This document shows positions 864 to 41,127 of a stretch of 41,127 nucleotides of DNA, one piece after another. Source of the stretch: a virus; the IMG/VR virus record IMGVR_UViG_3300037205_000008, positions 1 through 41,127 of that record. One strand, written 5' to 3'. A model generated the notes under the pieces. The model saw only the letters and a list, made by a program, of their open reading frames with translations, searched no databases and was not told the DNA's origin. The stretch's first letter is position 1. Each line of letters opens with the position of its first letter. The position numbers and the translations under genes are program-made.

Positions 864-1438
864 GCGACCTCCGCAACTTCCAGTGCGTGGGCTGCGCACA
901 TAACCAGCAGCGGCGCCTTCCATTGCGCCCAGAAATCGGCAGCGTCCTCGTCCATGCCGGCGATGGTCGCGTCATCGAACGCGGCCCACTCGGCATGAGT
1001 ATGGCGCTGGCAACCGATGCGCAGATAGCCTTCGGTGATGAGTACGTCCCATCGCAGATTGGCGATCTGGACCGGCACGCGGGTGATTTTTTCGCCGTTG
1101 ATATCCGCACCGCGCAGGTTCGCACCGCTCAGGTCCGCACCGCGCAGGTCCGCAGCGCGCAGGTTCGCACCGCTCAGGTCCGCACCGCGCAGGTCCGCAG
1201 CGCGCAGGTTCGCACCGCGCAGGTCCGCATCGCTCAGGTCCGCATTGCGCAGGTCCGCATCGCTCAGGTCCGCACCGCGCAGGTCCGCAGCGCGCAGGTT
1301 CGCAGCGCGCAGGTTCGCGCCGGCACGCGTCGCCTGTTCCAGCGCGGCACGGACTGCCATGCCGCTTTGCGTGTCGTCGGGCAACTCGGCGGTGTAGATC
1401 ACATCGCCCGACCAGCGAGACTTGATTTTGTGCTTCAC
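860..1438 (-). CDS. Pentapeptide-repeat protein (192 aa)
   Basis: After about 40 N-terminal residues there are 15 consecutive A(N/D)LXX pentapeptides (residues about 41-115), which fold as a right-handed quadrilateral beta-helix in this superfamily. The C-terminal 75 residues contain a conserved-looking module with IGCQRH, an acidic patch ([16 protein letters not shown]) and [13 protein letters not shown] recall similar C-termini in other phage and prophage pentapeptide proteins. Known relatives of the repeat fold (Qnr, MfpA) mimic DNA and bind gyrase; whether this one does so is inference. The GTG start at 1438 follows GGAGG with good spacing. The stop overlaps the next ATG. Confidence 0.85.
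1094..1318 (-). repeat. 15-bp tandem coding repeats (pentapeptide repeats)
   Basis: There are fifteen 15-bp units, variants of GCGCAGGTCCGCAGC on the plus strand. The repeats are in register with the reading frame and encode A(N/D)LXX. Unit-to-unit identity is high, so recent expansion by slippage or unequal recombination is likely and the copy number may vary between isolates. Confidence 0.9.
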
Positions 1439-1755
1439 GTCGCCTCCGAATGCTCGATGGCCAAAAGCTCGTTGATACGCCGATCAATCTCGGTCAGCGA
1501 AGCCTGCGATTCGGCGCGCACCTTGTCGGCTTGCTTGCGCAACTCCGCAACGGCGCCTGCGGTCACTTCGGACCTCGGCAGTAGCGTCACGGCCATCTGC
1601 GCGTCGCCAACCTTGACGTAGCCATGGCTGGACAGGTCGAATTGGCTGTAGGTCATGCTCGCCAGAGCCGCAACCGGATCGCCGGTTAGCTTGGCCGCGA
1701 TGTTGTACCTCGCGAACATCCACGCGCCGATTTTTCCTTCGATGCAATCGCTCAT
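1435..1755 (-). CDS. Hypothetical protein (106 aa)
   Basis: The family is not recognised. The N-terminal 60 residues are mixed alpha/beta in character ([15 protein letters not shown]). The C-terminal 45 residues are a charged helix ([19 protein letters not shown]) that may form a coiled coil. The ATG at 1755 was chosen because the preceding GAAGGAGAAG is an excellent ribosome-binding site and the ATG overlaps the stop of the 18-codon ORF upstream. The same ribosome-binding context occurs in front of the gene starting at 2626. Confidence 0.7.
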
Positions 1756-1801
1756 TCGGACTTCTCCTTCGGCGGTTCGGTTGGATCGCTGGTGCCAAGC
1801 G
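1752..1801 (-). repeat. Gene-junction repeat 1, copy A
   Basis: These 50 bp match 2623-2672 at 46 positions. On the minus strand the unit encodes a (L/F)[14 protein letters not shown] tail, contains the GAAGGAG ribosome-binding site and ends on the start codon of the next gene. The two copies flank the Ala-rich gene 1805..2626. Confidence 0.85.
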
Positions 1802-1808
1802 TCTTCAT
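1752..1808 (-). CDS. 18-codon coupling ORF, duplicated C-terminal remnant
   Basis: This ORF reads [18 protein letters not shown]. Its last 15 residues nearly repeat the C-terminus of the gene at 2623..2886 ([15 protein letters not shown]). It overlaps the stop of the Ala-rich gene upstream and the ATG of the gene downstream, so ribosomes could pass through all three. It is best read as the tail of a duplicated gene retained because it carries the downstream ribosome-binding site. It may have no role as a peptide. Confidence 0.5.
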   Translation of the reverse strand: MKTLGTSDPTEPPKEKSE

Positions 1809-2626
1809 GCGGCCAACTTCCTTGCGCGCTCCCAGGCCGCGTCGTCGATCTCGATTGGCGTGACATCCTCGAGCAGCGTGCGCAGCATCGCGACGGCTGA
1901 ATCGATGATTGGCTTGCGCGCCGGCGCGCGGCGGCGCGCGCCGGCGGCGGCGGCGTCGGCGGCGCCGTAGGCGGCGTAGGTGGCGGCGGCGGCGTCGGCG
2001 TCGGCGTCGTAGGCGGCGTAGGCGGCGTCGGCGTAGGCGGCGTCGGCGTAGGCGGCGGCGTCGGCGGCGGCGTCGGCGTAGGCGGCGTAGGCGGTGGCGG
2101 CGTAGGCGGTGGCGGCGTCGGCGTAGGCGGCGTCGGCGGCGTCGGCGGCGGCGTCGGCGTAGGCGGCGTAGGCGGTGGCGGCGTCGGCGTAGGCGCGCAG
2201 CTCTTGCCGTAGTTTGAGCGTCGCTTCGCGCGCGACTAGCGCGCTCTCGCGAGATGTGACCGGGGCAAGCTCTCGCTGCTTGCGCGCGAGATCTTGCTTT
2301 CCGAGCGCGTCGAGCATCTGCGGCAACACGCCTCGAATGGCCCAGTCGACGAGCATCCAGCGGCGGCGCTCTTCCGTCGCGCGATCCGCGCGGCTGCCCG
2401 CCAGGCGCGGGATCAATGGCACGAGTGCCAGGCGTTCCTCGTCGGTCATGCGGTCGTTCAGTCGCCTGCAAAAAGCGGCGATGACCGGGCACGCGCAGGC
2501 GGGAGAATCGCTCCATTCCTCGCCAGCGATGTACGCCACGGCCTCCATCACGCAGGCGCCAAGCGTGGGGCCCTCGTGGTTGCCTTCGAGCAGCTTCAGG
2601 GATAGGGCGGTCAAATCGTGGGTCAT
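1805..2626 (-). CDS. Hypothetical protein with long Ala/Tyr/Asp repeat (273 aa)
   Basis: Residues 1-140 look like a folded domain (KLLEGNHEGPTLGACVMEAV, then ACACPVIAAFCRRLNDRM) that I recall from hypothetical proteins of phages and actinobacteria but cannot name. Residues 145-230 are almost only Ala, Tyr, Asp and Thr in units such as AYADAA and TAYAA, predicting one long helix. The last 40 residues regain normal composition (AMLRTLLEDVTPIEIDD). The start at 2626 overlaps the stop of the upstream gene and uses the junction-repeat ribosome-binding site. The 2-3 kb neighbourhood is otherwise small early genes; function unknown. Confidence 0.7.
   Translation of the reverse strand: MTHDLTALSLKLLEGNHEGPTLGACVMEAVAYIAGEEWSDSPACACPVIAAFCRRLNDRMTDEERLALVPLIPRLAGSRADRATEERRRWMLVDWAIRGVLPQMLDALGKQDLARKQRELAPVTSRESALVAREATLKLRQELRAYADAATAYAAYADAAADAADAAYADAATAYAATAYAAYADAAADAAAYADAAYADAAYAAYDADADAAAATYAAYGAADAAAAGARRRAPARKPIIDSAVAMLRTLLEDVTPIEIDDAAWERARKLAA
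1937..2194 (-). repeat. Low-complexity GGC/GTC/GTA coding repeat
   Basis: The plus strand is a run of GGCG, TCGGCG and TAGGCGGC triplet-phased units that encode the Ala/Tyr/Asp helix of 1805..2626. The pattern is strictly in codon register (GCN, TAC, GAC), so selection acts on protein composition. Slippage here could change helix length without breaking the frame. Confidence 0.85.
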
Positions 2627-2672
2627 TCGGACTTCTCCTTTGGCGGTTCGGTCGGATCGCTTGTGCCAAACG
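2623..2672 (-). repeat. Gene-junction repeat 1, copy B
   Basis: This is the partner of 1752-1801 (46 of 50 identical). In this copy the tail belongs to a full-length gene (2623..2886), so this is probably the parental junction and the other copy the derived one. Confidence 0.85.
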
Positions 2673-2886
2673 CATCCAGCACGCGCGCAAAGCGGTCATC
2701 GTCCAGTTCTGGAAAAACGCGGCCGGGGACAGGCTCGCCTCGCAAACGATTTTCCCCGGCCGCACCCGGCAGCACTGGCTTTGGGTTCGGAGTTTTCGGC
2801 AGCGCGGCGAAGAACGCATCCATCGTCGCGGTGTTGCGCCATTTGTTGCGGGCGCGGGCGGCGCGCCAGTCGTAGGGTTGGCTCAT
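2623..2886 (-). CDS. Hypothetical protein (87 aa)
   Basis: The family is not recognised. The N-terminus is rich in Trp and Arg (YDWRAARARNKWRNT), the middle is Pro-rich (KTPNPKPVLPG), and the C-terminus is the acidic/proline tail [13 protein letters not shown] that is duplicated at 1752..1808. The ATG at 2886 overlaps the stop of the upstream gene and follows AAAGGAGATCGC, a good ribosome-binding site. Its stop overlaps the ATG at 2626. Confidence 0.65.
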   Translation of the reverse strand: MSQPYDWRAARARNKWRNTATMDAFFAALPKTPNPKPVLPGAAGENRLRGEPVPGRVFPELDDDRFARVLDAFGTSDPTEPPKEKSE

Positions 2887-3194
2887 GCTGCGATCTCCTT
2901 TTCGCGTTCGGTTTCGTCGGCGAGAGAGTCGGGGCGAATGGGGCGCAACTGCGAATCGTTGCAAACGATGTAGATCGTCCTGGCATAGCCGCTCGGATAC
3001 GTTGGCCATAGCAACGGTCGTTGCAGCTTGACAAGCCAGGAGTCGCTGTCGGCAGCGACATGTCCATTCCCGTCTGGGTCCGTGAAGGGCCGCCACGGCG
3101 CAAGATTCATCACGCTGACAATATGTCCGCACATCGGCGGGAATTCCGATTTATCGCTCACAATGATCGCCAGATCGCCGGGTTTGCAGTTCAT
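2883..3194 (-). CDS. Hypothetical protein (103 aa), probable small beta fold
   Basis: The first half reads like a small beta-barrel (KPGDLAIIV, then CGHIVSVMNLA, then SWLVKLQRPL). The second half has RTIYIVCNDSQLRPI and a charged tail ending TEREKEIAA. Proteins of this general look occur in early regions of other phages, but I cannot assign a named family. The stop overlaps the ATG of the next gene. Start at ATG 3194. Confidence 0.65.
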   Translation of the reverse strand: MNCKPGDLAIIVSDKSEFPPMCGHIVSVMNLAPWRPFTDPDGNGHVAADSDSWLVKLQRPLLWPTYPSGYARTIYIVCNDSQLRPIRPDSLADETEREKEIAA

Positions 3195-3197
3195 CGC

Positions 3198-3377
3198 TCA
3201 GTCCGCCCGGAAGGTGAACGGCTCGGCGCTGGTGCTACCGGCCGGGATCAGCTCGGGGGCGTCGAGGCAATAGGCGCCTTCAAGAACGTTGCGCGCCCAC
3301 GTATCGAACGGAACCGGATCGAAAATGCTGCCGGCAACGCCCTGCCGGAACTCGTGCTGCTCGGGGATGGGGTACAT
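3198..3377 (-). CDS. Hypothetical protein (59 aa)
   Basis: The predicted protein begins MYPIPEQHEFRQG and is acidic and aromatic (DPVPFDTWARNVLEGAYCLD). The start at 3377 is chosen because it lies 3 bases after the stop of the preceding gene; upstream sequence in this frame overlaps that gene and looks non-coding. The ribosome-binding site is weak, so expression may depend on coupling. No family recognised. Confidence 0.55.
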   Translation of the reverse strand: MYPIPEQHEFRQGVAGSIFDPVPFDTWARNVLEGAYCLDAPELIPAGSTSAEPFTFRAD

Positions 3378-3379
3378 GG

Positions 3380-3544
3380 CTACAGACTCGACCCGATGAA
3401 CGCATCCTGCCTCGCGCGGATCGCATGCAAGGTCTGCGGCTGATACTGCGCAAGGTCGGCGCGAATCGCGGCGATCTCGGCGGCGGGACGACGCAACTGG
3501 ATTGCCATCGCCAACATTTCGGTGAGGTTCTGGTAAGCGGTCAT
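3380..3544 (-). CDS. First gene of the leftward operon (54 aa, hypothetical)
   Basis: The protein MTAYQNLTEMLAMAI... is helical and basic (QLRRPAAEIAAIRADLAQY). The ATG at 3544 is preceded by GGGAGGATGCA, an excellent ribosome-binding site. It is the gene closest to the strong leftward promoter at 3598-3625, so it is likely the earliest and most highly expressed leftward gene. Function unknown; a small early host-directed protein is a reasonable guess. Confidence 0.65.
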   Translation of the reverse strand: MTAYQNLTEMLAMAIQLRRPAAEIAAIRADLAQYQPQTLHAIRARQDAFIGSSL

Positions 3545-3583
3545 TGCATCCTCCCGTTCGGCAGCGGCGCTGCCATGTGCTCA

Positions 3584-3612
3584 TTGACTACAGGCGAATA
3601 GTAGCGCAGAAT
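3584..3612 (+). promoter_or_regulatory. Rightward promoter for the HTH gene
   Basis: TTGACT (3584-3589), 17 bp, then CAGAAT (3607-3612). It overlaps the leftward promoter, so occupancy of one should exclude the other. A repressor binding here would control both directions, as in classical phage switches. Confidence 0.5.
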
Positions 3613-3625
3613 TACGCCGTGTCAA
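3598..3625 (-). promoter_or_regulatory. Leftward early promoter
   Basis: On the minus strand, TTGACA (3625-3620, a perfect -35) is followed after 16 bp by TACTAT (3603-3598, 4 of 6). It fires toward the gene at 3544. It overlaps a rightward promoter on the opposite strand, and the -10 region carries an imperfect inverted repeat beginning and ending GGCG/CGCC that could be an operator. Confidence 0.75.
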
Positions 3626-3654
3626 GCACCTTTTCAATCTTTTTGGGAGATTTT

Positions 3655-3861
3655 ATGGATCCGGTACTGCAATCCGTGCAGAAGCTGGCGCAGGCTCAAC
3701 CGGAATCGGACGCGGACCTGGCGCTGCTGGCCGGGGTGACGCGGCAGACCATCTGGCAACTTCGCAAGGGGCTGCTCAACGACAATATGCGGTTCGTGAC
3801 GGTCAAGCGCATTGCGGAGGCTTGCGGGCGCCGATTGATTTTGACCGCAGGGAAACAGTAG
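3655..3861 (+). CDS. Small helix-turn-helix regulator (68 aa)
   Basis: The protein contains an XRE-like helix-turn-helix at residues about 20-45 (DLALLAGVTRQTIWQLRKG) and then a helix with RFVTVKRIAEACGRRL. At 68 residues it has the size of Cro or a plasmid-type antitoxin/repressor and lacks a separate dimerisation domain. The ATG at 3655 follows GGGAGA at good spacing. It is transcribed rightward from a promoter that overlaps the leftward early promoter, so autoregulation and control of the leftward operon is the simplest inference. No partner toxin gene is visible beside it. Confidence 0.8.
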   Translation: MDPVLQSVQKLAQAQPESDADLALLAGVTRQTIWQLRKGLLNDNMRFVTVKRIAEACGRRLILTAGKQ

Positions 3862-3871
3862 AGGGTCTACC

Positions 3872-3897
3872 CTACCGCCGCTCCGGTAGCCATTTTT
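3872..3897 (+). terminator. Short intrinsic terminator after the HTH gene
   Basis: CTACCG (3872-3877) pairs with CGGTAG (3884-3889) across a 6-base loop and is followed by CCATTTTT. The stem is short, so efficiency may be modest, but its place 10 bases past the stop codon fits. Confidence 0.5.
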
Positions 3898-3982
3898 ACA
3901 TTCCAAATCAGCAACCTGCAGCGTCCCGCTACACAATACGGCGCCATTTTTCGGCCGTCTGTGCGTTGTCGCGCATAGGGGG

Positions 3983-4010
3983 TTGCAATTTGCGCTATGA
4001 CTTTTATACT
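3983..4010 (+). promoter_or_regulatory. Strong rightward promoter of the leader
   Basis: TTGCAA (3983-3988, 5 of 6), 16 bp, then TATACT (4005-4010, 5 of 6). Predicted start near 4017. The 3898-3982 stretch before it shows no gene. It drives the leader with the small ORF 4056..4160 and the terminator at 4159-4196. Confidence 0.75.
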
Positions 4011-4055
4011 TTCGATTGTCCGTGTGGAAACGGCAACCGAGTTTGAGGTAGACGA

Positions 4056-4160
4056 ATGGTGAAGTGTTTTTACCTGCGAGTAGTGCCCGAGAGGGCCACG
4101 CGTCGTCTGCCCCGCGTTTCCAGCTGCTTGCAGATCAAAGCGCTCCCCGCTGCGACCTAG
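4056..4160 (+). CDS. 34-aa leader ORF
   Basis: ATG 4056 follows GAGGT at suitable spacing, and the ORF ends on TAG 4158-4160, exactly at the first stem of an intrinsic terminator. The peptide is basic with two Cys (MVKCFYLRVVPERATRRL...). Either it is a small protein made in quantity from a short transcript, or its translation affects folding of the terminator and so readthrough into the rightward genes. A ribosome paused at the stop codon would cover the left arm of the hairpin. Confidence 0.5.
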   Translation: MVKCFYLRVVPERATRRLPRVSSCLQIKALPAAT

Positions 4161-4196
4161 CCCCCTTAGCCGAAAGGCTTCGGGGGCTTTTCTTTT
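4159..4196 (+). terminator. Strong intrinsic terminator in the rightward leader
   Basis: AGCCCCC (4159-4165) pairs with GGGGGCT (4182-4188). Nested inside, AGCC (4168-4171) pairs with GGCT (4176-4179) around a GAAA tetraloop. TTTTCTTTT follows. It stands between a strong promoter and all rightward genes beyond 4.2 kb, about 180 bases from the predicted start, reminiscent of the lambda late leader and its terminator. Confidence 0.85.
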
Positions 4197-4205
4197 GGGG
4201 CACAA

Positions 4206-4310
4206 ATGGACCGTCTGCCGCACGACAGGTTTGGGGTTGCGCCGCCCGCTGGCAAGGAAGGCGTCATCTGCCGCACCCACGGCAGGTGTTCCTGGGCTGG
4301 TGGTTCCTAG
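4206..4310 (+). CDS. Possible 34-aa ORF after the terminator
   Basis: The ORF begins MDRLPHDRFGVAPPAG and ends AGGS. There is no clear ribosome-binding site (only GGGG 6 bases upstream), and the composition is unremarkable. It is listed because the 4197-4351 stretch is otherwise empty. It may be non-coding leader sequence. Confidence 0.2.
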   Translation: MDRLPHDRFGVAPPAGKEGVICRTHGRCSWAGGS

Positions 4311-4351
4311 CTCAGGCGGTTCGGGCGCTCAGTGACCACGGACAGGAGCCC

Positions 4352-4447
4352 ATGCCGAAACATCGACCGTCAGAACTAAAGGCCTCGAGAGGGTGGCGTC
4401 CGGTCACCCCTGGTAGAACTATGGACAAAAGGATAAAACCATGGTAG
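4352..4447 (+). CDS. 31-aa small basic protein
   Basis: ATG 4352 follows CAGGAG with 4-base spacing. The peptide is basic and Trp-containing (MPKHRPSELKASRGWRP...) and ends KRIKPW. Its stop overlaps the ATG of the next gene at 4441, suggesting translational coupling. The role could simply be to deliver ribosomes to the downstream gene. Function unknown. Confidence 0.45.
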   Translation: MPKHRPSELKASRGWRPVTPGRTMDKRIKPW

Positions 4448-5019
4448 GTAAGTCGGGTACTGACAAACCAGAGAGGCGAGCCGTGCGCCTGGACGTGGAA
4501 GTTCTACCCGATGAGTGGAGGGCCGATTGTTCGATGCTTCGGCCTGATCTGGATGCCCAGGCGACGTTTGACTCGTTTGCCGACTACTGGCGTTCAAAGG
4601 CTGGTGCGGACGCCTGCAAGCTGGATTGGCGGATGACCTGGCGGAACTGGTGCAGGAATACGAAGTACGCGGCCTCGACGGGATATTCGCAGAGGCCTGT
4701 ACCTGTTCCAGTGCCGCAACCTTTTAAGCCTGCGGAGGAAGTCAGGCCCGCAACTTCAGAGGAACGGGCTTTTGCTGCCAGCGTCGTTCGGAAGGCTCGA
4801 GGGCTGGCCCGCCAGCTCAGCGACAGCGAGTTCAATGTCGGCTGGGCGCACAGGTTGAAGGCTCGGGCGATTGCTGGAGAGCATCTTCTGCCGTGTCAGA
4901 TAAAGGCATACACGGAGGCTCTGGCCGACATTCCGCCAACCGAAGATGAGAAGGAAGCGGCAGCAGAAAGGGCAGCAATGATGACCGAGGACGAACCGAT
5001 ACCGGACTGGATGCCGTGA
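4441..5019 (+). CDS. Putative phage replication/DNA-binding protein (192 aa)
   Basis: Residues about 35-75 contain an aromatic helical pattern (FDSFADYWRSKAGADACKLDW, then WRNWCRN) that I recall from the C-termini of many phage replication-initiator proteins, where the F..YW...G.....DW...W..W pattern follows a winged-helix domain. Here the winged helix is missing, so this could be a reduced version. The rest is a Pro/Val linker, a helical region and an acidic tail ending PIPDWMP. It is first in the rightward middle operon and overlaps the next gene by GTGA. The replication role is inferred from position and motif only. Confidence 0.5.
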   Translation: MVGKSGTDKPERRAVRLDVEVLPDEWRADCSMLRPDLDAQATFDSFADYWRSKAGADACKLDWRMTWRNWCRNTKYAASTGYSQRPVPVPVPQPFKPAEEVRPATSEERAFAASVVRKARGLARQLSDSEFNVGWAHRLKARAIAGEHLLPCQIKAYTEALADIPPTEDEKEAAAERAAMMTEDEPIPDWMP

Positions 5020-5363
5020 GCCTGTCCCCAGACGAGGAACGCTTGCTGCCGCGTCCGCACAGGGCTTTCCTGAAGTCGCCGCCGTTCCGCAGTGAGGCCC
5101 TTCGCCGCGCTGTCGCTGATCTGCCTTGCGCCAGGTGCGGGATCGAGGGCTATACGCAGAGCGCTCACGTGGGAGGGGTCGCAGATGGAAAAGGCATGGG
5201 CATCAAGGTATCCGACGCCCGCATTGCCGCCCTGTGTGCCGACCGTCCCGGAGTCCGTGGCTGCCATTCCATCGTTGGGGATGGCCACAACGACGCCAAC
5301 GCGATTGCCTACGTCGCAAAGACGCTGATCCAGCTTATCGAATCCGGGGCCTTGAGGGCATGA
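5016..5363 (+). CDS. HNH-like zinc-binding phage protein (115 aa), Nin-region type
   Basis: The core at residues about 37-90 has the spacing CARCG, a His (SAHVGG), GMGIKVSD, LC and GCHSIVG. This resembles the small HNH/McrA-like zinc proteins of lambdoid Nin regions (the DUF1364 group, from memory), which are presumed nucleases or recombination accessories. The GTG start at 5016 overlaps the preceding stop. The last residues (LIQLIESGALRA) are helical. The substrate is unknown; position before a methyltransferase and a nuclease gene fits DNA metabolism. Confidence 0.65.
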   Translation: MSLSPDEERLLPRPHRAFLKSPPFRSEALRRAVADLPCARCGIEGYTQSAHVGGVADGKGMGIKVSDARIAALCADRPGVRGCHSIVGDGHNDANAIAYVAKTLIQLIESGALRA

Positions 5364-5591
5364 ATGACCAATTGCCCGCTATGCGACCGCGCACGCCGAG
5401 AAGTCGTCGGCGAGTATCAATCGACGCGTCGTTGCTGCCGGCTGAGGTATCTGCTACTTCCGTGGCACAGCAAAGACTACCGGCGAGCGACGCTCGAACG
5501 CTGGTCGGTACAGCACGGACCGGACGAGGCGGAGGCAACGCGCGCCGACGTGGTGGCGGCGTGGAATGAGCGCGTACTACAACGAGCATGA
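5364..5591 (+). CDS. Small Cys-containing protein (75 aa)
   Basis: The N-terminus has CPLC followed by a CC pair about 17 residues later, a possible zinc knuckle. The rest is Arg/Trp-rich and ends with a helix ([14 protein letters not shown]) of the kind seen in small phage proteins with an AWN.R motif. The ATG at 5364 directly follows the preceding stop. The end overlaps the methyltransferase start by 26 bases. Family not named with confidence. Confidence 0.6.
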   Translation: MTNCPLCDRARREVVGEYQSTRRCCRLRYLLLPWHSKDYRRATLERWSVQHGPDEAEATRADVVAAWNERVLQRA

Positions 5592-6780
5592 GCCGTTTGC
5601 GGCGCAGTGGCTGCGGAACCTGATTGCGGCGGGGCACATTGCCGCTGGGGATGTGGATGAGCGAAGCATTGTTGATGTTCGACCCGACGACTTGCGCGGA
5701 TACACCCAATGCCACTTCTTCGCCGGCATCGGCGGATGGAGCCTCGCCCTGCGACTTGCAGGCTGGCCCGATGACCGACCTGTTTGGACAGGCTCTTGCC
5801 CCTGCCAGCCATTCAGCCAGGCCGGCGCCCAGCGTGGCGGCGCAGATGAGCGACACCTATGGCCTGCGTTGTTCCGGCTCATCGGCGAGTGCCGCCCTGG
5901 CGTCATCTTTGGCGAGCAAGTTGCCGGAGCTTCTGGCCTCGCGTGGCTCGACCATGTTTGCGCTGACCTGGAAGGCGCAGGTTACGCCGCAGCGGCGGCG
6001 AATCTGTGCGCTGCTGGCGCGGGCGCACCGCACATCAGACAACGACTGTATTGGGTGGCCGACACCGGTGGCCAACGACAGCAAGGGCTCGGATTACAGC
6101 TACAACCAGGGCAACCACGACTCGATCACGTTGAAGCTCGGCGGCGCGGCGAAGGCGTGTTGGGGCACACCGCTAGCCCAACACGCGAACGGCACGCCGG
6201 AGGCGTTCTTGGAGCGCAAGCGGCGCTCGTTGCGCAACGGCAGTCAATCGATGGGCGTGTGCCTATCGGATCTGAATATGCAGGCGCAAGCGTACTTGGG
6301 GACGCGGCCGACACTGATGGCCGGAACGCCAGCGCAGAAGGGCTACAACGAAGCGGGCAACACGGACAGCAGCCGCAAGACGGTGGCGCTGCTCGCCGCA
6401 TGGCCGACGCCGAAAACATCCGACGCGGACAAAGGTGTGCGGACGATGCGCGGGGCGCTCAACGAGTTGAACCGGAAGGGTCCGGGCAGCGATCTGCCGA
6501 CGATCGCGGCTGCCGCATGGGCGACGCCAACTGCGCGGGACTGGCGCTCGACGCAGAGCAACCAGCACGGCAAGAACGCGCGCCCCTTGAGCGAGAAGGC
6601 TGGGCTGATCTCGAATGGCTCCCCTGCCGAGATGGAAAAGCCCGGCCAACTGAACCCGGCCTTTTCCCGCTGGCTCATGGGATTCCCAATCGCTTGGGAC
6701 GACTGCGCGCCTACGGCAACGCGATCGTCCCGCAAGTCGCCGCGGCTTTTATCGAAGCCGTGATGCAATGCAACGAATGA
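5566..6780 (+). CDS. dcm: DNA (cytosine-5)-methyltransferase (404 aa)
   Basis: The enzyme transfers a methyl group from SAM to C5 of cytosine. Motif I ([10 protein letters not shown]) lies at about 51-60, motif IV with catalytic Cys80 in [12 protein letters not shown], a motif VI-like FGEQVAG near 115-121, motif [13 protein letters not shown] near 158-166, and motif [14 protein letters not shown] near the C-terminus. Between VIII and X the target-recognition region (about 170-350) is unusual: low-complexity, Gly/Gln/Arg/Asp-rich, with recurring ADT, ADA or GDA units. That region is read in a second frame by gene 5651..6763. No cognate restriction enzyme is adjacent, so an orphan, self-protecting methylase is likely. 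Confidence 0.9.
5651..6763 (+). CDS. Overlapping +1-frame protein with WPTP repeats (about 370 aa)
   Basis: This frame stays open for over 1.1 kb entirely within the methyltransferase gene and encodes a protein I recognise by pattern from other phages: a Ser/Ala/Pro N-terminus ([14 protein letters not shown]), then GSSASAAL, a [15 protein letters not shown] block, repeated W(P/G/A)TP...D units ([33 protein letters not shown]) and an ending [15 protein letters not shown]. Such proteins are often annotated as methylase-associated or hypothetical. Start choice is uncertain: ATG 5651 follows GGGG; ATG 5675 is an alternative. Function unknown. Both frames look constrained, so this appears to be a true overlapping gene. 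Confidence 0.65.
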
Positions 6781-7151
6781 CGGCCGCCGAGGCGCGCTCT
6801 GTGCCCGCACGCAAGCCAGTGAAGCGGTCTAGCCGCCTGGACCTCGAGACGGTGATGGCGTTGCAGATCGGGATGGACCTTTCGATACCCGCTCCGGAGC
6901 GCGAGCAAATGCTGATTGTCGGTCGAAAGTTCCGCACCGACTTTAGCTGGCCGGCGCACAAGCTGATCCTCGAGGTTGAGGGGGGCATCTGGGGCAAGAG
7001 CCGACATACCTCCGGTGTCGGGTTTACTCGGGACACGGAGAAGTACAACGCTTTGGCCTGCATGGGGTATAGGGTGCTTCGAGTAACCACGGACCAAGTT
7101 CATAACGGGCAAGCTTTGAAATGGCTGCAACAGGCTCTAGGGACGCCTTGA
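6768..7151 (+). CDS. PD-(D/E)XK-type endonuclease, Vsr/DUF559-like (127 aa)
   Basis: The core FRTDFSWPAHKLILEVEGG fits the beta-hairpin of Vsr and DUF559-type nucleases, with candidate metal ligands Asp in TDF and Glu in EVEGG. It is followed by a basic GKSRH stretch, a helix with DTEKYNALACMGYRVLRV and a strand. Size matches this compact family. It directly follows the cytosine methyltransferase, with an overlap, as Vsr follows Dcm in enteric bacteria. It may act in mismatch repair at methylated sites or as a resolvase or nickase; these cannot be separated here. An internal ATG at 6777 is an alternative start. Confidence 0.7.
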   Translation: MQRMTAAEARSVPARKPVKRSSRLDLETVMALQIGMDLSIPAPEREQMLIVGRKFRTDFSWPAHKLILEVEGGIWGKSRHTSGVGFTRDTEKYNALACMGYRVLRVTTDQVHNGQALKWLQQALGTP

Positions 7152-7154
7152 AGC

Positions 7155-7331
7155 GTGCGTGTTCCTCACGATCCGATTCTTGTGCCAGTAGGCCATCGAT
7201 GGGTCTGCATCGACCGTCTGAGTCCGCTGCCGATCCTGGCGGTAGGCAACAGCATGACCGAGGCGTATCGGCGCTGGCGGACCGCCGCAGCCCAGAGAGA
7301 CAGACTCGACGCAATGCGGTGGACGCAATAA
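7155..7331 (+). CDS. Small hypothetical protein (58 aa)
   Basis: GTG 7155 opens an ORF with good protein character: VPHDPILVPVGHRW, then LSPLPILAVGN, then MTEAYRRWRTAAAQRDRLDAM, a likely beta-hairpin plus helix. It fills the space between the nuclease and the winged-helix gene and overlaps the latter by 13 bases. The ribosome-binding site is weak. No family recognised. Confidence 0.5.
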   Translation: MRVPHDPILVPVGHRWVCIDRLSPLPILAVGNSMTEAYRRWRTAAAQRDRLDAMRWTQ

Positions 7332-7537
7332 CCGGGTTCGACGTTGCCTTGATCGCCGCCATTGAGGCCGAAGGCGCCGAGGTCCGCTTGATCGTTGCGA
7401 GGCTCCGTAAGCGTGGAGTTCGGCCCTTGGGCTGCCGCAGCCTAATCGAGACACTTGCGGACCGACTTCAAGTCTTGCGAAACGCGGGACATATCGAATA
7501 CGCCGCCGGCCGGTGGCGCCTAACGGAGGCCGCATGA
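7319..7537 (+). CDS. Winged-helix-like DNA-binding protein (about 72 aa)
   Basis: The protein VDAITGFDVALIAAIE... has two helices, then VRPLGCRSLIETLADRLQVL as a candidate recognition helix and GHIEYAAGRWRLT as a wing, typical of a compact winged helix. The reading frame is open further upstream to 7121, but that part would overlap two other genes and is Arg/Ser-rich, so an internal start is preferred; GTG 7319 is the best candidate. It is the last regulatory-looking gene before the conserved late promoter element at 7910, so it is a candidate activator, by position only. Confidence 0.5.
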   Translation: MDAITGFDVALIAAIEAEGAEVRLIVARLRKRGVRPLGCRSLIETLADRLQVLRNAGHIEYAAGRWRLTEAA

Positions 7538-7908
7538 AGGTCATCATCGCTCTTTGCGTTACCACGCTATCCGCGTGCGCCCAAGTTCCAACAATCGCCC
7601 CCAGGGCCGCTGCAACGCCCCAGGCGACCTATGCCGCGTGGTCGGACGACCAGAAGTCGGCAGACGCTGCCCGCCATGTCCCTGTGGCAACTGCAACGGC
7701 TGACAAGGCCGCGATCATGCTTTTTGGGGACGCTTTCGAGTGCGCCAAGGGCAAGCGTGCCATTGCGATCTTCCGGGATTCGCATACCGCGTACCTCGCG
7801 TGCTGGTCGAGTCGTCCTGACGGCAAGATCGCCCTCGACTATGAGGATGGCGATCATCTGGTTATTGACGTGGACGAGGCCGATGCGCCAACCAAGGGCA
7901 GTCTGTGA
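7534..7908 (+). CDS. Predicted lipoprotein (124 aa)
   Basis: The N-terminus MKVIIALCVTTLSAC has a short signal peptide with lipobox LSAC, so Cys15 is the likely lipidated residue. The mature part is a small alpha/beta domain with a Cys pair (FECAKG and LACWSS) and an acidic C-terminus (DYEDGDHLVIDVDEADA). A phage-encoded envelope lipoprotein made before the late genes may act in superinfection exclusion, but this is inference. The start overlaps the preceding stop (ATGA). Its end lies at the first late promoter. Confidence 0.7.
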   Translation: MKVIIALCVTTLSACAQVPTIAPRAAATPQATYAAWSDDQKSADAARHVPVATATADKAAIMLFGDAFECAKGKRAIAIFRDSHTAYLACWSSRPDGKIALDYEDGDHLVIDVDEADAPTKGSL

Positions 7909-7909
7909 T

Positions 7910-7958
7910 AACTGGTAGCACTCACTAGTCACGCATAGGCGCGAATCACCACTATCAT
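7910..7958 (+). promoter_or_regulatory. Late promoter element, copy 1
   Basis: AACTGGTAGCACTCAC (7910-7925) is followed after 27 bp by TATCAT (7953-7958). The same 16-mer at 26433 is followed after 26 bp by TATAAT. The spacer shares CGCA and GGCGCG. No -35 consensus is present, so the 16-mer, at about -54 to -39, is probably an activator site. This is one of only two sizeable intergenic gaps between rightward genes after 4.4 kb. Confidence 0.65.
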
Positions 7959-7966
7959 TTGCGACC

Positions 7967-8227
7967 ATGCCATCACTCCATAACCCGTGGGCACGGTGGG
8001 CCGAGATTCAGCGGTCCAAAAGGCCGTATCAGATTGCCGAGCAAGCCGAGCGGTTGGGATGTATCCAGCTTCGCTTACATGGGGAATCACTTCTGACGCG
8101 CCCATTCCCTGCCAAGAGAGGTCTAGGGGTCAGGGGCGAGTTGATCGGGGTTTATACGAGTGGAGTGAGGCCGGAGTGGATTGCGGCTGACGTAGAGGCT
8201 TACAGGAGTCAACATGCCGAAGCGTGA
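7967..8227 (+). CDS. Hypothetical protein, first gene of late operon 1 (86 aa)
   Basis: The protein has a basic helical N-terminal half (WARWAEIQRSKRPYQIAEQAERL) and ends ADVEAYRSQHAEA. No family is recognised. The ATG at 7967 is only about 9 bases beyond the predicted -10, so the mRNA would be nearly leaderless and there is no ribosome-binding site. Either translation is leaderless, or the first efficiently translated gene is 8214..8378. Confidence 0.55.
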   Translation: MPSLHNPWARWAEIQRSKRPYQIAEQAERLGCIQLRLHGESLLTRPFPAKRGLGVRGELIGVYTSGVRPEWIAADVEAYRSQHAEA

Positions 8228-8378
8228 AAGTGGCGAGCCTCTATCGAAGTTTATTTCCCGCTTTGTCGGTGACAAGGCGGAAGAGAAGAAGTTTCCGGAT
8301 CGCAAACAACGTCTCGCGGTGGGTTACGCCGAGGCTCGAGAAAGTGCCAAAAAGGAGCGCCGGCATGGCAAATCGTAA
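8214..8378 (+). CDS. Small basic protein (54 aa)
   Basis: ATG 8214 follows AGGAG with 6-base spacing. The product MPKRESGEPLSKFI... is Lys/Arg/Glu-rich and likely helical (AEARESAKKERRHGK). It overlaps genes on both sides by a few bases, as expected in this operon. No family recognised. Its place just ahead of terminase genes is typical for small unknown phage proteins. Confidence 0.6.
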   Translation: MPKRESGEPLSKFISRFVGDKAEEKKFPDRKQRLAVGYAEARESAKKERRHGKS

Positions 8379-8613
8379 AGAAATGACTTCCAACGCCCGC
8401 ATTCGATTCAACCTCGGCGGTGGGCCGGAAGATTCCACGAAGGGGGCTGGGAGTGCGCATCTGTCGGTGCATGGAATGCGTGCGCGGGTCGAGCAGAAGC
8501 TTCCTGGGGCTCACTTTGAGGCCGACGGATTGAGCACCGGCAAGCAGACTGGACCGATTCGCGGGCCTGATGCTTATCAGGGCGAGGTGTTTAAATCCGG
8601 CGAGTCGAACTGA
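8365..8613 (+). CDS. Hypothetical protein (82 aa)
   Basis: The start at 8365 is supported by AAGGAG about 8 bases upstream and by the overlap with the end of the previous gene. The protein contains FNLGGGPEDSTKGAGS and a C-terminal GPDAYQGEVFKSGESN, low in hydrophobic residues and perhaps partly disordered. Family not recognised. Confidence 0.6.
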   Translation: MANRKEMTSNARIRFNLGGGPEDSTKGAGSAHLSVHGMRARVEQKLPGAHFEADGLSTGKQTGPIRGPDAYQGEVFKSGESN

Positions 8614-8879
8614 TGCCGCGCGACGTTTCAGGCAAGCCGGTCAAGCCTGAGAGGGCCGCCGAGCCCGTTAAAGAGGGTCCGTCGAAGGACCCTATCAGTA
8701 CCCCCAAAGAGGCCAAGGAAGCCGTTGGAGGTCCTGCCGAAATGCTGCGCCACCACAATGACTTGCTCATCACGATTGCAGACAAGCTCGGTATCAAGCA
8801 CAAGCTGGACGGATTCAAAGGCGAGGATCAAGGCGGCAAAGCCAAGATCGAGGTCGGCGAGAAGAGAAAGCACCACTGA
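8613..8879 (+). CDS. Hypothetical charged protein (88 aa)
   Basis: The N-terminal half is Pro/Lys/Glu-rich and probably disordered (KPVKPERAAEPVKEGPSKD). A helical core follows (AEMLRHHNDLLITIADKLGI), then a basic tail ending KRKHH. The start overlaps the preceding stop and the stop overlaps the next ATG. No family recognised. Confidence 0.6.
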   Translation: MPRDVSGKPVKPERAAEPVKEGPSKDPISTPKEAKEAVGGPAEMLRHHNDLLITIADKLGIKHKLDGFKGEDQGGKAKIEVGEKRKHH

Positions 8880-9070
8880 TGGCCTTAGCTAAGGCCTCGC
8901 TGCCGCCGATCCCCGAGAGGCGGAGGGAAGATCAGCGGATTGATCGGGTCGATGAATGGATCGATGAGATTGTCAAGGATCTTGCCGATATGGCCAAGAT
9001 TGTCAAGGACCTGGACGACCGCCTACGAAAACTGGAATCGTGCGCGAGTCATCGGAGCTGGTACGCATGA
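8879..9070 (+). CDS. Small coiled-coil protein (63 aa)
   Basis: From residue 15 onward the sequence is a continuous charged helix with heptad spacing (RIDRVDEWIDEIVKDLADM, then AKIVKDLDDRLRKLES), predicting a coiled coil and oligomerisation. The stop overlaps the start of the GroES-like gene. Function unknown. Confidence 0.6.
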   Translation: MALAKASLPPIPERRREDQRIDRVDEWIDEIVKDLADMAKIVKDLDDRLRKLESCASHRSWYA

Positions 9071-9471
9071 TTAAATCATCCGGTCGTTCCGCCGAGCTAA
9101 GCCAAGACAGCCGCGCCTACATCGCCGCCAATGAACAGATCCGCATGCGACTCGATTACATGCTGGTGGAGCCTCTTGAGCGCGATCTATCGAAAACCCT
9201 TACGGTGGTCGAGAACACGAAACCCGTACGAGGTCGAGTAATTGCTATTGGTCCAGGAACGCATCCGAAGGTCTATGACCATCCGGACAAGCACAAGCGC
9301 AAGTCATTCGAGTATTCCAGCCGATTCCTCGAGACGCAGGTAAAGCCTGGCGATCTGGTCGAATTGGGCGGAATCGATATCGGCGGCTACAGCTTTCCGC
9401 AGATCATGTACGGGAACAAAAAGTACCTGATCTGCCGGGAACTGGACGTGAGCGGAGTGCTTGAACAATGA
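9067..9471 (+). CDS. GroES-like co-chaperonin (134 aa)
   Basis: After about 30 N-terminal residues the protein follows the GroES barrel order: MLVEPLERD (first strand pair), a loop with TLTVVENTKPV in the mobile-loop position, RGRVIAIGPG, an inserted basic loop (HPDKHKRKSFEYSSR), VKPGDLVELGG, and a final KKYLICRELDVSGVL strand pair. Bacterial GroES is about 97 aa, so this version carries an N-terminal extension and a longer loop. T4 gp31 is the known precedent of a phage co-chaperonin that replaces GroES to fold its coat protein. Location in the head operon supports such a role. Start taken at the ATGA overlap. Confidence 0.75.
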   Translation: MIKSSGRSAELSQDSRAYIAANEQIRMRLDYMLVEPLERDLSKTLTVVENTKPVRGRVIAIGPGTHPKVYDHPDKHKRKSFEYSSRFLETQVKPGDLVELGGIDIGGYSFPQIMYGNKKYLICRELDVSGVLEQ

Positions 9472-9692
9472 AAATCAGAGTCCAAATCGGCGAGTTTTGG
9501 TGTGAAGGGGAATGTCCCGATGGCGATGCAATCGGGATGTGGCCGGCGGAGTTTGTAGAGCGCTATCTCATGCCGCCATGCCATGCGGCGATAACGAATT
9601 TGCAGGACAAATTGAATCCTGAAAATTTTGCCCGGCTTGTCCATGCCAGAACCGAGGCCGCAATGGCCATTCATAAAACCAACAAGCCGTAA
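9468..9692 (+). CDS. Hypothetical protein (74 aa)
   Basis: An acidic protein with a beta-like start (KIRVQIGEFWCEGECPDGD) and a helical remainder (AAITNLQDKL, NFARLVHARTEAAMAIH). Start and stop overlap neighbours by 4 and 1 bases. No family recognised; the conserved-looking Cys pair CEGEC might bind metal. Confidence 0.6.
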   Translation: MKIRVQIGEFWCEGECPDGDAIGMWPAEFVERYLMPPCHAAITNLQDKLNPENFARLVHARTEAAMAIHKTNKP

Positions 9693-9910
9693 TGAAAAAG
9701 CCCGCATCCCTGCTCCTGAATATGACCAGTCCTGAAGGCCGGGCAATGATCCAGGTCAGCATTGAAGCCCTCAGTTCCGCGGAGCGTGGCTGGCTTCTCA
9801 AGCTGCTGCGATCCGCCGAAAAGGGCTCCCAGGTGGGATTTGGCGTTGCCGAAGAGGATGGAGTCCCGGCGATCAAGTTCAGGATCGGCCAGCCCGAAAC
9901 GGTGCAGTAA
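9692..9910 (+). CDS. Hypothetical protein (72 aa)
   Basis: Short alpha/beta protein: MIQVSIEALSSAERGWLLKLL is a likely amphipathic helix, followed by strands VGFGVAEEDG and AIKFRIG. It overlaps both neighbours by one base. Not recognised. It precedes terminase and may be a small head or packaging accessory, by position only. Confidence 0.6.
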   Translation: MKKPASLLLNMTSPEGRAMIQVSIEALSSAERGWLLKLLRSAEKGSQVGFGVAEEDGVPAIKFRIGQPETVQ

Positions 9911-10188
9911 TGGGCGAGCATCGCAAAAAGCTGTCGATCAAGCGGGTTGATCTATCGGACTGGTCCGATGTTCCACGTGAAGCCGCCGCCGATATCCCTC
10001 CCGAAGATTGGGTACTAGGCCAACTTCTAGACGTACGCCAGATGGACGTCGGATACGTCGTAACGCTCCTGGGCGAACCGTACGACCAAAGGAAAGCGGA
10101 GCGAGCACTGACATTCTCGAATAGCGCAGCCTGCCAGAACTTCGTATCGGCATGGTATGCGAAGACCTATGACCCCAAGGCCGCCTAA
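9910..10188 (+). CDS. Hypothetical protein (92 aa)
   Basis: A basic start (GEHRKKLSIKRVDLSDW) leads into an acidic segment (AAADIPPEDWVLG), a beta region (QMDVGYVVTLLGEP) and a helical end (CQNFVSAWYAKTYDPK). The stop overlaps the small terminase start by one base. Family not recognised. Confidence 0.6.
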   Translation: MGEHRKKLSIKRVDLSDWSDVPREAAADIPPEDWVLGQLLDVRQMDVGYVVTLLGEPYDQRKAERALTFSNSAACQNFVSAWYAKTYDPKAA

Positions 10189-10682
10189 TGGGGCGCCCCT
10201 CCAAGCTGACGCCATCCCAATGGGACGAGATCGCCAAGCGGATCGCCGGGGGCGAAAGCAAAGCATCCCTATCAAGGGAATACGGAATATCCCAAGGCGT
10301 GCTTTCCCAAAGGTTTTCAGAATTTCCAAAGGAGGTCATTCGGAAACTTGGCGCCGAGTTGGCATTGCTCCAACCGCAGGCCCAAGCGGCTGCTGTAACG
10401 CTTGCCGACGAGTTGCGGTCGATCAGCGGAAACCTTGCCGCCGCAGCCCGGTATGGCTCTGCCACGGCCCATAGGCTCCAAGCCTTAGCCCATGGCGAGG
10501 TCCAGAAGATTGATGATGCCAATCCGCTGGAGTCGGTGGAAGCGTTGAAGGGTGTAGCGGCCCTGACCCGGCTTGCGAATGAATCGTCTGCGACTGGACT
10601 GGCGTTACTTGCCGCCAATCGGGAATCGAAGGCTGATGGGGCGCAGCCGGTGCTGATCGACAGTGCCTTGGCGCAGGTGTGA
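10188..10682 (+). CDS. terS: Terminase small subunit (164 aa)
   Basis: The N-terminus is a helix-turn-helix (LTPSQWDEIAKRIAGG, then ASLSREYGISQGVLSQRF) that would recognise the packaging site. The middle and C-terminal helices (AELALLQPQAQAAAVTLAD and ESVEALKGVAALTRLANE) suit ring oligomerisation. Size and position directly before the large subunit fit the family. The stop overlaps the large-subunit GTG start, so the two are translationally coupled. Confidence 0.85.
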   Translation: MGRPSKLTPSQWDEIAKRIAGGESKASLSREYGISQGVLSQRFSEFPKEVIRKLGAELALLQPQAQAAAVTLADELRSISGNLAAAARYGSATAHRLQALAHGEVQKIDDANPLESVEALKGVAALTRLANESSATGLALLAANRESKADGAQPVLIDSALAQV

Positions 10683-12016: not shown

Positions 12017-12153
12017 CCATTATTTCCGCCAAGGAAGGCGACTGCGGTGGAACTGGCGAACGCTGCCTGCTGGTCTACGCGGTGAATGTGGATGCGTATG
12101 TGTGTCGTCAGTGCGGCAAGCAATTCCCGGTGACGGATGAGGTGGTGCAGTAA
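11998..12153 (+). CDS. Small zinc-ribbon protein (51 aa)
   Basis: The ORF starts inside the last codons of terminase and ends one base into the portal start. It contains two Cys pairs, DCGGTGERC and YVCRQCGKQF, the arrangement of a one-zinc ribbon. The coding frame fills the terminase-portal gap exactly, which supports it as a gene. It may bind nucleic acid or the packaging complex; no named family. Confidence 0.65.
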   Translation: MDAQPVAIISAKEGDCGGTGERCLLVYAVNVDAYVCRQCGKQFPVTDEVVQ

Positions 12154-36952: not shown

Positions 36953-37167
36953 GCGCGCACTACTTTTTCGCCACAACGATCCATCGGCTCGTACTTGCGC
37001 CAAAATCTCGGCATCGATTCTCTTGGAGCTAATATCTTGGCGTACGCGACCTCTGGCGCGCTTACTAGACTTCGGCCGCCGCGAAAATCGTACTGGTACA
37101 CAAGCAAATCCATGCCATGCTCGGCGCCGATTTTTTGCAGGGCTTCGATGTACTCCGCTAGGGTCAT
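36949..37167 (-). CDS. Small hypothetical protein (72 aa)
   Basis: Begins MTLAEYIEALQKIGAEHGMD followed by a strand (LLVYQYDFRGGR) and a C-terminal basic region (RFWRKYEPMDRCGEKVVRA). The N-terminal pattern of a helix followed by a GMD-L-VY strand is common in small phage proteins of unknown function. ATG 37167 uses the ribosome-binding site of junction repeat 2, copy A. Confidence 0.65.
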   Translation of the reverse strand: MTLAEYIEALQKIGAEHGMDLLVYQYDFRGGRSLVSAPEVAYAKILAPRESMPRFWRKYEPMDRCGEKVVRA

Positions 37168-37196
37168 TGCTCCACTCCCGGTTCCGCCGCGCACTC
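37164..37196 (-). repeat. Gene-junction repeat 2, copy A
   Basis: These 33 bp match 37433-37465 with one difference (37182/37451). On the minus strand the unit encodes the tail ECAAEPGVEQ and stop, and contains GGAGTGGAGCA followed by the next gene's ATG. It links 37164..37436 to 36949..37167. Confidence 0.88.
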
Positions 37197-37436
37197 CATA
37201 GGGCGCGCTGGCCGCTCGTTTCCGTACAGAATGAACTCAAACCATCCGCCATCACTATCGTCTATGGCGGCGTCCCGGCATTCCGGATGCATCTTGACGG
37301 TGGTAGCTTCGCCGCCGCCGTCATACCAGCGCCAGCGCCAATAGCTCTCTCCGACCTTTACGCGGTCGCCGCACCATGAGCATCGATGCCGCACCAAGGC
37401 GCCCTTGATGAGCACCGGATCAGTAGCGTAGCTCAT
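37164..37436 (-). CDS. Small zinc-finger-like protein (90 aa)
   Basis: CSWCGDRVKVGESYWRWRW, then MHPEC, form a C..C...H...C pattern typical of a phage zinc ribbon with a WRW strand (residues about 18-55). The tail ECAAEPGVEQ is the same as that of the upstream gene. ATG 37436 uses the ribosome-binding site of junction repeat 2, copy B. Function unknown; nucleic-acid or protein binding are both possible. Confidence 0.65.
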   Translation of the reverse strand: MSYATDPVLIKGALVRHRCSWCGDRVKVGESYWRWRWYDGGGEATTVKMHPECRDAAIDDSDGGWFEFILYGNERPARPMECAAEPGVEQ

Positions 37437-37465
37437 TGCTCCACTCCCGGCTCCGCCGCGCACTC
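37433..37465 (-). repeat. Gene-junction repeat 2, copy B
   Basis: Partner of 37164-37196 (32 of 33 identical). It joins 37433..37651 to 37164..37436. The two copies enclose the zinc-finger-like gene, so recombination between them would delete or duplicate exactly one gene in frame with its signals. Confidence 0.88.
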
Positions 37466-39427: not shown

Positions 39428-39638
39428 CGTCGCCACCCTGGGGCGCGGTATTGCGCTCTTCCTTCGGCTTGATCTGCAAGGAGTAAAACTCGCCGCGCTT
39501 GCCGTCCTTGATCCATCCGGAAATCTCCATCGTGACGCCGTTCAGCAGGCAAGTACCCTTCCAGTCCGGAGCCTTCGGGTTGCCTTTCTTGTCGTTGCGG
39601 AAGAGGGAACCTTGCCCCTCGCGTTGTTCGTATGGCAT
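39408..39638 (-). CDS. Small ssDNA-binding-like protein with SSB-type acidic tail (76 aa)
   Basis: The C-terminus is GGDDDRIPF, almost the DDDIPF tip with which bacterial SSB recruits partner proteins. Before it, KGTCLLNGVTMEISGWIKDG and FYSLQIKPKEE look like OB-fold strands, but the domain is shorter than that of SSB (about 110 aa). It follows the nuclease gene, as an SSB often does in phage recombination modules. ATG 39638 overlaps the preceding stop within the GGGGGCGTGATG junction that is also at 426-437. Confidence 0.7.
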   Translation of the reverse strand: MPYEQREGQGSLFRNDKKGNPKAPDWKGTCLLNGVTMEISGWIKDGKRGEFYSLQIKPKEERNTAPQGGDDDRIPF

Positions 39639-40252
39639 CACGCCCCCGTTGTAAATGCTTCGAATAGTTGATCGACGTAAGCCAAGAACTCGGCGGCCTG
39701 CTCTTCAATCTCCGCAATTTTCGACTGCGGGGGCTCGAATCGGCGCACGAACAATTGCAGTTTCGGGTTCTGAATCCTCGGATCGAAAGCGACAAAATCC
39801 ACGTACTTCCTCCCGGTGCACGCGAGCTGGACAAGCATCTGCGGCTGATGCTCTTCCGGTACGACTCCCTCTTTCCGCCATGCGATGTACTTGACGGTGG
39901 TCGGGCATTTCGCCTCAAGCAAGCCATCGGAATCAATAAGCCGATCCGGAGTTGCGCCCAAGCACTCAATTTTGGGATGCGGGAACCATCCGGCTTTGTG
40001 CGTGAGATTGCCGCTCTGGGCCTCGTATAGCTCGCAGGCGCCGGCTTCGTTGTCCAAGCCCCACTGCATTGCGGGGGTGACGTAGTGATCCACAGCGACC
40101 CCTGTAACGCGTTCTGCAACGATCTGGAATGCAAGGGTCTGCCGCGATTCGGACCAGCCGGATTTAGTCCGCTTGATCGCCAGGCCGATCTGCGACGCGC
40201 CAAGGTTCCCGACGCGCGCCGGTATCCAAAGTTTGGAATCCTGTGGGATCAT
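39638..40252 (-). CDS. Phage recombination exonuclease, lambda Exo/YqaJ-like (204 aa)
   Basis: Processive 5'-3' resection of DNA ends, making 3' single strands for the annealing protein. The catalytic triad is visible as ATPDRLI (Asp103) and LLEAKC (Glu113, Lys115), with the same spacing as lambda Exo Asp119, Glu129, Lys131. Family length is about 200-226 aa. Also typical are PAMQWGLDNEAGACELYE (helix of the fold) and PEEHQPQMLVQLACTG. It overlaps the annealing-protein gene by 4 bases. Confidence 0.88.
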   Translation of the reverse strand: MIPQDSKLWIPARVGNLGASQIGLAIKRTKSGWSESRQTLAFQIVAERVTGVAVDHYVTPAMQWGLDNEAGACELYEAQSGNLTHKAGWFPHPKIECLGATPDRLIDSDGLLEAKCPTTVKYIAWRKEGVVPEEHQPQMLVQLACTGRKYVDFVAFDPRIQNPKLQLFVRRFEPPQSKIAEIEEQAAEFLAYVDQLFEAFTTGA

Positions 40253-40824
40253 GCCGCCGCCTTGATGGCTGGACGCTTGAAAGCGGCGTGTTCAGGGGTT
40301 GCGATGGCCGCAGATCGAAACTCTTCCGTTTGTGCTTTCCACCAGTCGGCGTACGTGCCGCTGGCTTTCGCGTTGGCGGCAGCGGTCTGCAATGCCGGCG
40401 TCCAGGGGGACGGCGCCTGCATAGGCGCATGAGGCTTTTCCGCCGCCGCGTTGCCATCGTCGTCAATCGGCGCCAGTCCCACCATCCCCATGAGGGAATA
40501 TCGGCGAGCGTAAGTCGCGGCAGACCCGAATCCGTGGCTGTCCCGCTTGCCGACCGGGACCTCGAAAACCTCCGAAAGCCATTCCCCTGAGGTATGGGCC
40601 AGCATCGTTTCGCAGGCCACTCCCGTTTCGGTCGAGCGGATCGCCTGGACTACGGCAATTCCCCGCTTGGACAGGGGTCCTCGGATAGACTCCCAGACGG
40701 CTCCAAGGTCCGCATACCGGCTTCTGAACGCCGGGTTGACGTTTCCCTTGACCGCGCCCTCAATCTCGCCCTGGGCCTCGGCAAGGGCCTTGGCAAGCCC
40801 TGCAATGCTGTCGCTGCGAATCAT
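40249..40824 (-). CDS. erf: ERF-type single-strand annealing recombinase (191 aa)
   Basis: Anneals complementary single strands and, in P22, circularises the genome by recombination between terminal repeats. Residues about 12-125 show the family pattern: LAEAQGEIEGAVKGNVNPAF, YADLGAVWESIRGPLSKRGI, and SHGFGSAATYARRYSLMGM, the most conserved block. The C-terminal third is a Pro/Ala linker and a tail with WTPALQTAAANAKA. ATG 40824 follows the near-perfect AAAGGAGG at ideal spacing; the longer upstream frame lacks such a signal. Confidence 0.9.
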   Translation of the reverse strand: MIRSDSIAGLAKALAEAQGEIEGAVKGNVNPAFRSRYADLGAVWESIRGPLSKRGIAVVQAIRSTETGVACETMLAHTSGEWLSEVFEVPVGKRDSHGFGSAATYARRYSLMGMVGLAPIDDDGNAAAEKPHAPMQAPSPWTPALQTAAANAKASGTYADWWKAQTEEFRSAAIATPEHAAFKRPAIKAAA

Positions 40825-41039: not shown

Positions 41040-41127
41040 CCGAACCTGCTATTGCGGGCGATCATGTCGTCGCGGAGATCGTTTAGCTCTTTCTCGCGGG
41101 CCTTTAGCGCCCCTTCAAGCCGCAGAA
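40980..41127. repeat. Terminal redundancy, right copy
   Basis: Identical to 1-148 except base 41001 (T against C at 22). See the left copy. Confidence 0.95.
41036..41127 (-). CDS. C-terminal part of the coiled-coil protein (second copy of 57..148)
   Basis: The last 30 codons of the gene complete at 57..428, repeated because of the terminal redundancy. The window ends inside the gene. Confidence 0.8.
   Translation of the reverse strand, partial: LRLEGALKAREKELNDLRDDMIARNSRFG

Follow-up and report, generated by a model that had tools for sequence, protein, structure and literature searches.

A repeated gene junction in the early operon of a virus as a probable scar of homologous recombination

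Results

Genes and repeats of the early operon

The DNA analysed here, called the window, is the whole 41,127-base stretch of an IMG/VR contig. Its early operon, encoded by the minus strand, spans the ends of the record, from about position 3600 to 1 and then from 41127 to about 35500. Positions 1-148 and 40980-41127 form a 148-bp end repeat of 99% identity with one mismatch; the molecule may be terminally redundant or circularly permuted, one base being variable. In coding-strand order, the locus of interest consists of gene A, a first copy of a repeated junction, gene B, an ORF of 18 codons, the second junction copy and gene D (Table 1). Gene A had no match in Pfam or PHROG. Gene B had none in Pfam and a single weak match to a phage protein, with 41% over 42% of B. 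Its Ala-rich tract (1906-2217) is composed of 9- and 15-nt units, and 15-nt units likewise make up a pentapeptide-repeat gene at 860-1438. A relative of gene B with the same Ala-rich architecture (38.6% identity over 88 aa) is present in two other contigs, L026/L030, where its neighbours are unrelated to those in the window; gene B thus appears to have a history of its own. Genes for an ERF-family protein and a YqaJ-type exonuclease sit within the same operon as the repeated junctions.

Table 1 Features of the early operon in the window, with the evidence for each.
Feature	Positions	Strand	Basis
Gene A, 87 aa, no known family; last 14 residues encoded by junction copy 1	2623..2886	-	ORF
Junction copy 1: tail, AAAGGAG and ATGA start of gene B	2623..2672	-	46/50 identical to copy 2
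Gene B, 273 aa: N-terminal domain (weak PHROG 13065/3416) and Ala-rich repeat tract; between the junction copies	1805..2626	-	ORF, PHROG match
Orphan-tail mini-ORF, 18 codons	1752..1808	-	Sequence and translation
Junction copy 2: tail, GAAGGAG and ATGA start of gene D	1752..1801	-	46/50 identical to copy 1
Gene D, 106 aa, weak PHROG 2479 (unknown function)	1435..1755	-	ORF, PHROG match
ERF-family single-strand annealing protein	40249..40824	-	Pfam PF04404, E = 2e-17
YqaJ-type exonuclease, partner of ERF	39638..40252	-	PF09588, E = 1e-19
Second pair, upstream copy: tail SECAAEPGVEQ-stop, GGAG and ATGA	37433..37465	-	Repeat search, translation
90-aa gene between the second pair; C-terminal end MECAAEPGVEQ-stop	37164..37436	-	ORF
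Second pair, downstream copy, followed by a 72-aa gene (36949-37167)	37164..37196	-	Repeat search, ORF

A sequence-only reading of this DNA had described a 50-bp repeat on either side of gene B, and a repeat search of the window recovered the same coordinates exactly. The two 50-nt copies are 92% identical and were found with E = 1e-13 in a blastn self-comparison of the window; in an ungapped alignment of the copies, identity drops straight to background beyond the 50 nt on both sides. Translation of the minus strand confirmed that both copies encode a C-terminal tail, namely L or F followed by 14 common residues, and that both end on the start of the next gene with the stop/start overlap ATGA, at 1755 and 2626. 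The ribosome-binding site (RBS) had been given as GAAGGAG for both copies. This is correct for the copy at 1752, but the copy at 2623 reads AAAGGAG, and what the copies share is the core AAGGAG. The tail at 1752 is indeed a separate ORF of 18 codons, as had been noted. This ORF is opened by ATGAAGACG, its ATG overlaps the stop of gene B (ATGA, 1805-1808), and its stop overlaps the start of gene D, again as ATGA.

Within the tails we counted five differences, four of which are synonymous, compared to about 25% expected (P about 0.016 by our own arithmetic). This suggests that the copies diverged while both of them were translated tails, and, with 8% divergence, the copies do not stem from a very recent event. 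A tandem duplication of gene A or its 3' end would likewise yield two tails and a short ORF that terminates in one of them, if gene B had subsequently replaced the second copy of A or grown inside it and the mini-ORF were the remnant of that copy. We regard such a history as quite unlikely, since no similarity to gene A survives upstream of the 50 bp, either in gene B or in the mini-ORF, since the boundary is sharp with 92% identity inside, and since the B-type gene of L026 sits amid unrelated neighbours. As the source record is a metagenome contig from IMG/VR, an artefact of assembly also has to be considered. It is hardly credible, given that the copies differ at four bases, that the repeat is short, and that the same anatomy occurs in other contigs and in the isolate phage Island3.

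The same operon contains a second pair of repeats, overlooked by the sequence-only reading, in which 32 of 33 positions are identical and which is built as the tail ECAAEPGVEQ-stop followed by GGAG and ATGA. These two junction pairs are the sole non-tandem direct repeats in the window (22-90 nt, within 6 kb, E <= 1e-3). Both pairs end on a gene start, as do 8% of random segments in the same data set.

Start-anchored repeats and repeated junctions in related contigs

The frequency of repeats anchored at gene starts was assessed in 71 contig groups by comparing, within each genome, the 37 nt ending at every start-like site with those at all other such sites, and six positions shifted downstream by 45-120 nt served as the null. 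With at least 27 of 37 identities, 6 pairs were obtained at the true position, compared to 0, 0, 0, 0, 0 and 1 at the shifted positions; with at least 24 of 37, the numbers were 15 and 0-3, respectively. The RBS consensus inflates the low end of these identity counts, but not the range of at least 27/37. One of the six top pairs, in contig L068, is not clearly a junction. Pairs between genomes were discarded as a null because orthologues fill the upper tail.

Three contigs of the window's phage group, L010, L013 and L019, contain two junctions that one phage has twice and others have once. One of them, J2, occurs in L010 at 1447-1472 and 1698-1723 (26/26 identical, GAATTGAGATTACACAGGAGGGTGGA) before two successive genes, and is single in L013 (6108-6173) and in L019 (231-306). 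The L013/L019 copy has gtccg in front, as in the upstream copy of L010, and tcATG behind, as in the downstream copy; from these flanks it looks like a recombinant of the two L010 copies. The genes behind J2 differ across the three contigs, and the comparison is therefore as much one of a gene swap at the junction as one with a clean empty site. The other junction, J1, is present in L010 at about 134-172 and 868-906 (CGATTGATTCCCGCACCGGCGGTT...), where it encloses two genes (436-849 and 158-421). It is single in L013 (5791-5876), where its upstream side is that of one L010 copy and its downstream side that of the other. The L013 copy is followed by a pentapeptide-repeat gene, and the next gene begins like the gene after the second L010 copy (MADSMH/MTDSMH). 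We also considered whether two L010 genes, starting with MKTYKAF and MKAYKAF, are one cassette inserted twice, and rejected this as the genes are unrelated past 7 residues.

In L013, the tail junction QWxEIxxxxK-stop plus RBS plus ATGA is present in three copies, at 2978, 3298 and 3721. Two of these form orphan-tail ORFs, 14 and 19 codons long, each with a start that overlaps the stop before it, and they closely parallel the 18-codon ORF in the window. The same contig has a 26-nt repeat, AAAGCCATGACCACCCTCGCGCAGAA, at two starts (3539-3564 and 3762-3787), the first of which is fused in frame to an orphan tail, so that one junction is nested in another. A further contig, L046, has the near-identical tails QCDSDGGECD and DCESDGGECD-stop with GGAG before two starts. 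The sequence of the junction differs from phage to phage in the group.

Repeats of other types were seen in two further contigs. L068 has intergenic repeats right before starts (466-517/3675-3727 and 1014-1044/3948-3978), one with the hairpin GGCCAGT...ACTGGCC and one with CCCATGCTAGTGTTCGGTTGTCACTAAGGAG, which resemble start-associated sequences or regulatory cassettes. L076 contains, at 2754-5552, repeats of about 58 nt with the ends CCTAACG...GTTAGGC, an inner inverted repeat and a spacing of 0.3-1 kb; they look like integron attC sites and would make up a cassette array, although the contig is classified as viral.

Search for relatives of the locus

The DNA of window positions 1400-3600 gave no match in the phage collection, and no relatives of the flanking genes A and D were found in IMG/VR. 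Scanning IMG/VR with gene B did not yield relatives either, and the degenerate tail DPTEPPKE had no exact match elsewhere in IMG/VR. A scan of IMG/VR with the terminase returned 80 related loci, and most of the remaining sequence of 20 of the records was fetched. These terminase-related records were the source of the gene B relative in L026/L030, and genes A and D had no relatives in the fetched sequence. The phages matched in a scan with the ERF protein were too distant for comparison. Among 84,980 bacterial and archaeal genomes, the only match to the terminase (46%) was a distant prophage-like locus in Fangia hongkongensis (L121). A near-identical relative, L003, corresponds to the window in pieces and only within 5361-12402. 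As no relative of the A/D locus was found, we infer the gain or loss of gene B rather than see it directly.

L003 lacks a DNA methyltransferase gene that is present in the window at 5566-6780, and seems to hold two DUF559-like stretches at this site. This is the one recent gene difference between the two; it was rejected as a case of a junction repeat, since microhomology at the joint amounts to only about 12 nt. Further gene gains within the group have an overlap of 8-14 nt only. Together with the methyltransferase joint, these overlaps indicate that junction repeats are not the sole route of gene gain.

Discussion

The arrangement in the window has a close precedent in mycobacteriophages of cluster I. 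Pope et al. 2011 (PMC3029335) reported that the last 18 residues of Island3 gene 68 match those of gene 67 and that Brujita has a single recombinant copy, and called this the first such event in mycobacteriophages. We reproduced both the Island3 repeat (58 nt, 91%) and the recombinant copy of Brujita. In Island3, as in the window, the repeat encodes a C-terminal tail, there of 18 aa, it ends at the stop and the next start, and one gene lies between the copies; Brujita lacks that gene. The window shares with this type of event a direct repeat of about 50-60 bp over the C-terminal codons up to the stop and next start, and a single gene without close homologues, gene B, between the copies. A single recombinant copy was seen for L010 compared to L013/L019, but no relative of the window locus was found; for Island3, the empty site is known from a near-identical phage, whereas the phage collection and IMG/VR provided none for the window. 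A further difference is that in Island3 the inserted gene itself has the second copy as its tail, while in the window that copy is a separate 18-codon ORF. We therefore consider the junction in the window to be of the same kind as that of Island3/Brujita, from which the orphan tail is a minor departure.

Other repeats at gene boundaries share only some of these properties. Short conserved boundary sequences have been proposed to drive the mosaicism of lambdoid phages (as cited in PMC3029335), likewise by homologous recombination at short sequences between genes, but the window repeat is mostly coding and specific to one phage. The chain of ATGA-linked genes in ninR of phage lambda, examined as a precedent, contains no such repeat. 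Neither junction copy of the window forms a stable hairpin when folded as DNA (z between -0.2 and 0.6). Mobile regulatory cassettes of T4-type phages, called PeSL, reportedly are repeated regulatory junctions around single genes that permit shuffling. They are intergenic units of promoter and stem-loop, whereas the window junction has neither a stem-loop nor intergenic space, and we rejected a T4-type PeSL cassette because the repeated unit has no stem-loop. A direct repeat flanking a single gene is also what would be expected of site-specific cassette exchange at an integron attC site or a similar recombinase target. This possibility is very improbable and largely refuted by the missing hairpins and by the variation of the repeat sequence from phage to phage; an attC cassette proper was rejected for lack of an imperfect inverted repeat that folds into a stable hairpin.

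It could further be argued that the repeat serves a function in translation or regulation, for which it is selected at several starts like the start-associated sequences of cluster K, and that it is no recombination scar at all. Those sequences have the 13-bp consensus GGGATAGGAGCCC, occupy 11-19 sites, mostly in larger intergenic gaps, and are thought to act in expression (PMC3203893). They share with the window repeat that an RBS-containing repeat lies directly before the start codon, which in the window forms the end of the repeat, and the distant relative L068 has intergenic repeats of this start-associated type. We nevertheless hold a regulatory element to be unlikely, as only two copies are found among the many starts of the operon, without the multi-site distribution of the cluster K sequences, as the conserved part is mostly coding and its differences are synonymous, and as each phage has a different junction sequence. 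A start-associated sequence in the strict sense was rejected on the basis of the two copies and the absence of the 13-bp consensus.

The two 50-bp copies are thus probably the ends of a gene-sized insertion/deletion polymorphism, a scar left where homologous recombination took place at a short junction. Since the RBS lies inside the last codons of the preceding gene in a tightly packed operon, the junction can move only as tail plus RBS plus overlapping start. Exchange at such a shared junction, whether two phages or two copies within a single genome take part, would insert or remove one gene together with one junction. Gene B may have arrived by this route, and could possibly depart by it: exchange between the two copies would remove 871 bp and leave gene A, the tail, ATGA and gene D with their signals intact. 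The sequence-only reading had claimed that recombination at the duplicated junction can bring in or eliminate an entire gene in this way, which is supported by analogy with L010/L013/L019 and Island3/Brujita, but not by the window's own locus. The ERF and YqaJ proteins of the phage could plausibly perform the recombination. In phage D3, Erf/Exo equalled lambda Red in recombining sequences of 100% and of 78% identity (PMC3945230); the substrates were 800 bp long, and for 26-50 bp we therefore only infer a use of ERF/YqaJ here.

The 18-codon orphan tail would be the leftover end of the tail of gene A and may keep gene D coupled to the translation of gene B. Tentatively, tail, RBS and ATGA can be conceived as a portable coupling linker in the early operons of this phage group, in which case orphan tails of 14-19 codons, with a start overlapping the preceding stop by 4 nt, would be retained for delivering terminating ribosomes to the start that follows. 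If this were true, any gene could be plugged in at such linkers with downstream expression kept.

How single genes are swapped in crowded phage operons without breakage, by illegitimate recombination or by short boundary homologies, is an old question. Island3 represents one clear case, and the phage group of the window adds at least four more repeated junctions (two in the window, two in L010 and the three-copy junction of L013), two of which have single-copy counterparts in relatives. The novelty is modest and consists of more cases, two of them in one genome, of single-copy counterparts in relatives and of orphan tails. The added cases show the coding tail and the RBS moving as one unit, and the orphan-tail ORFs render the idea of coupling directly testable.
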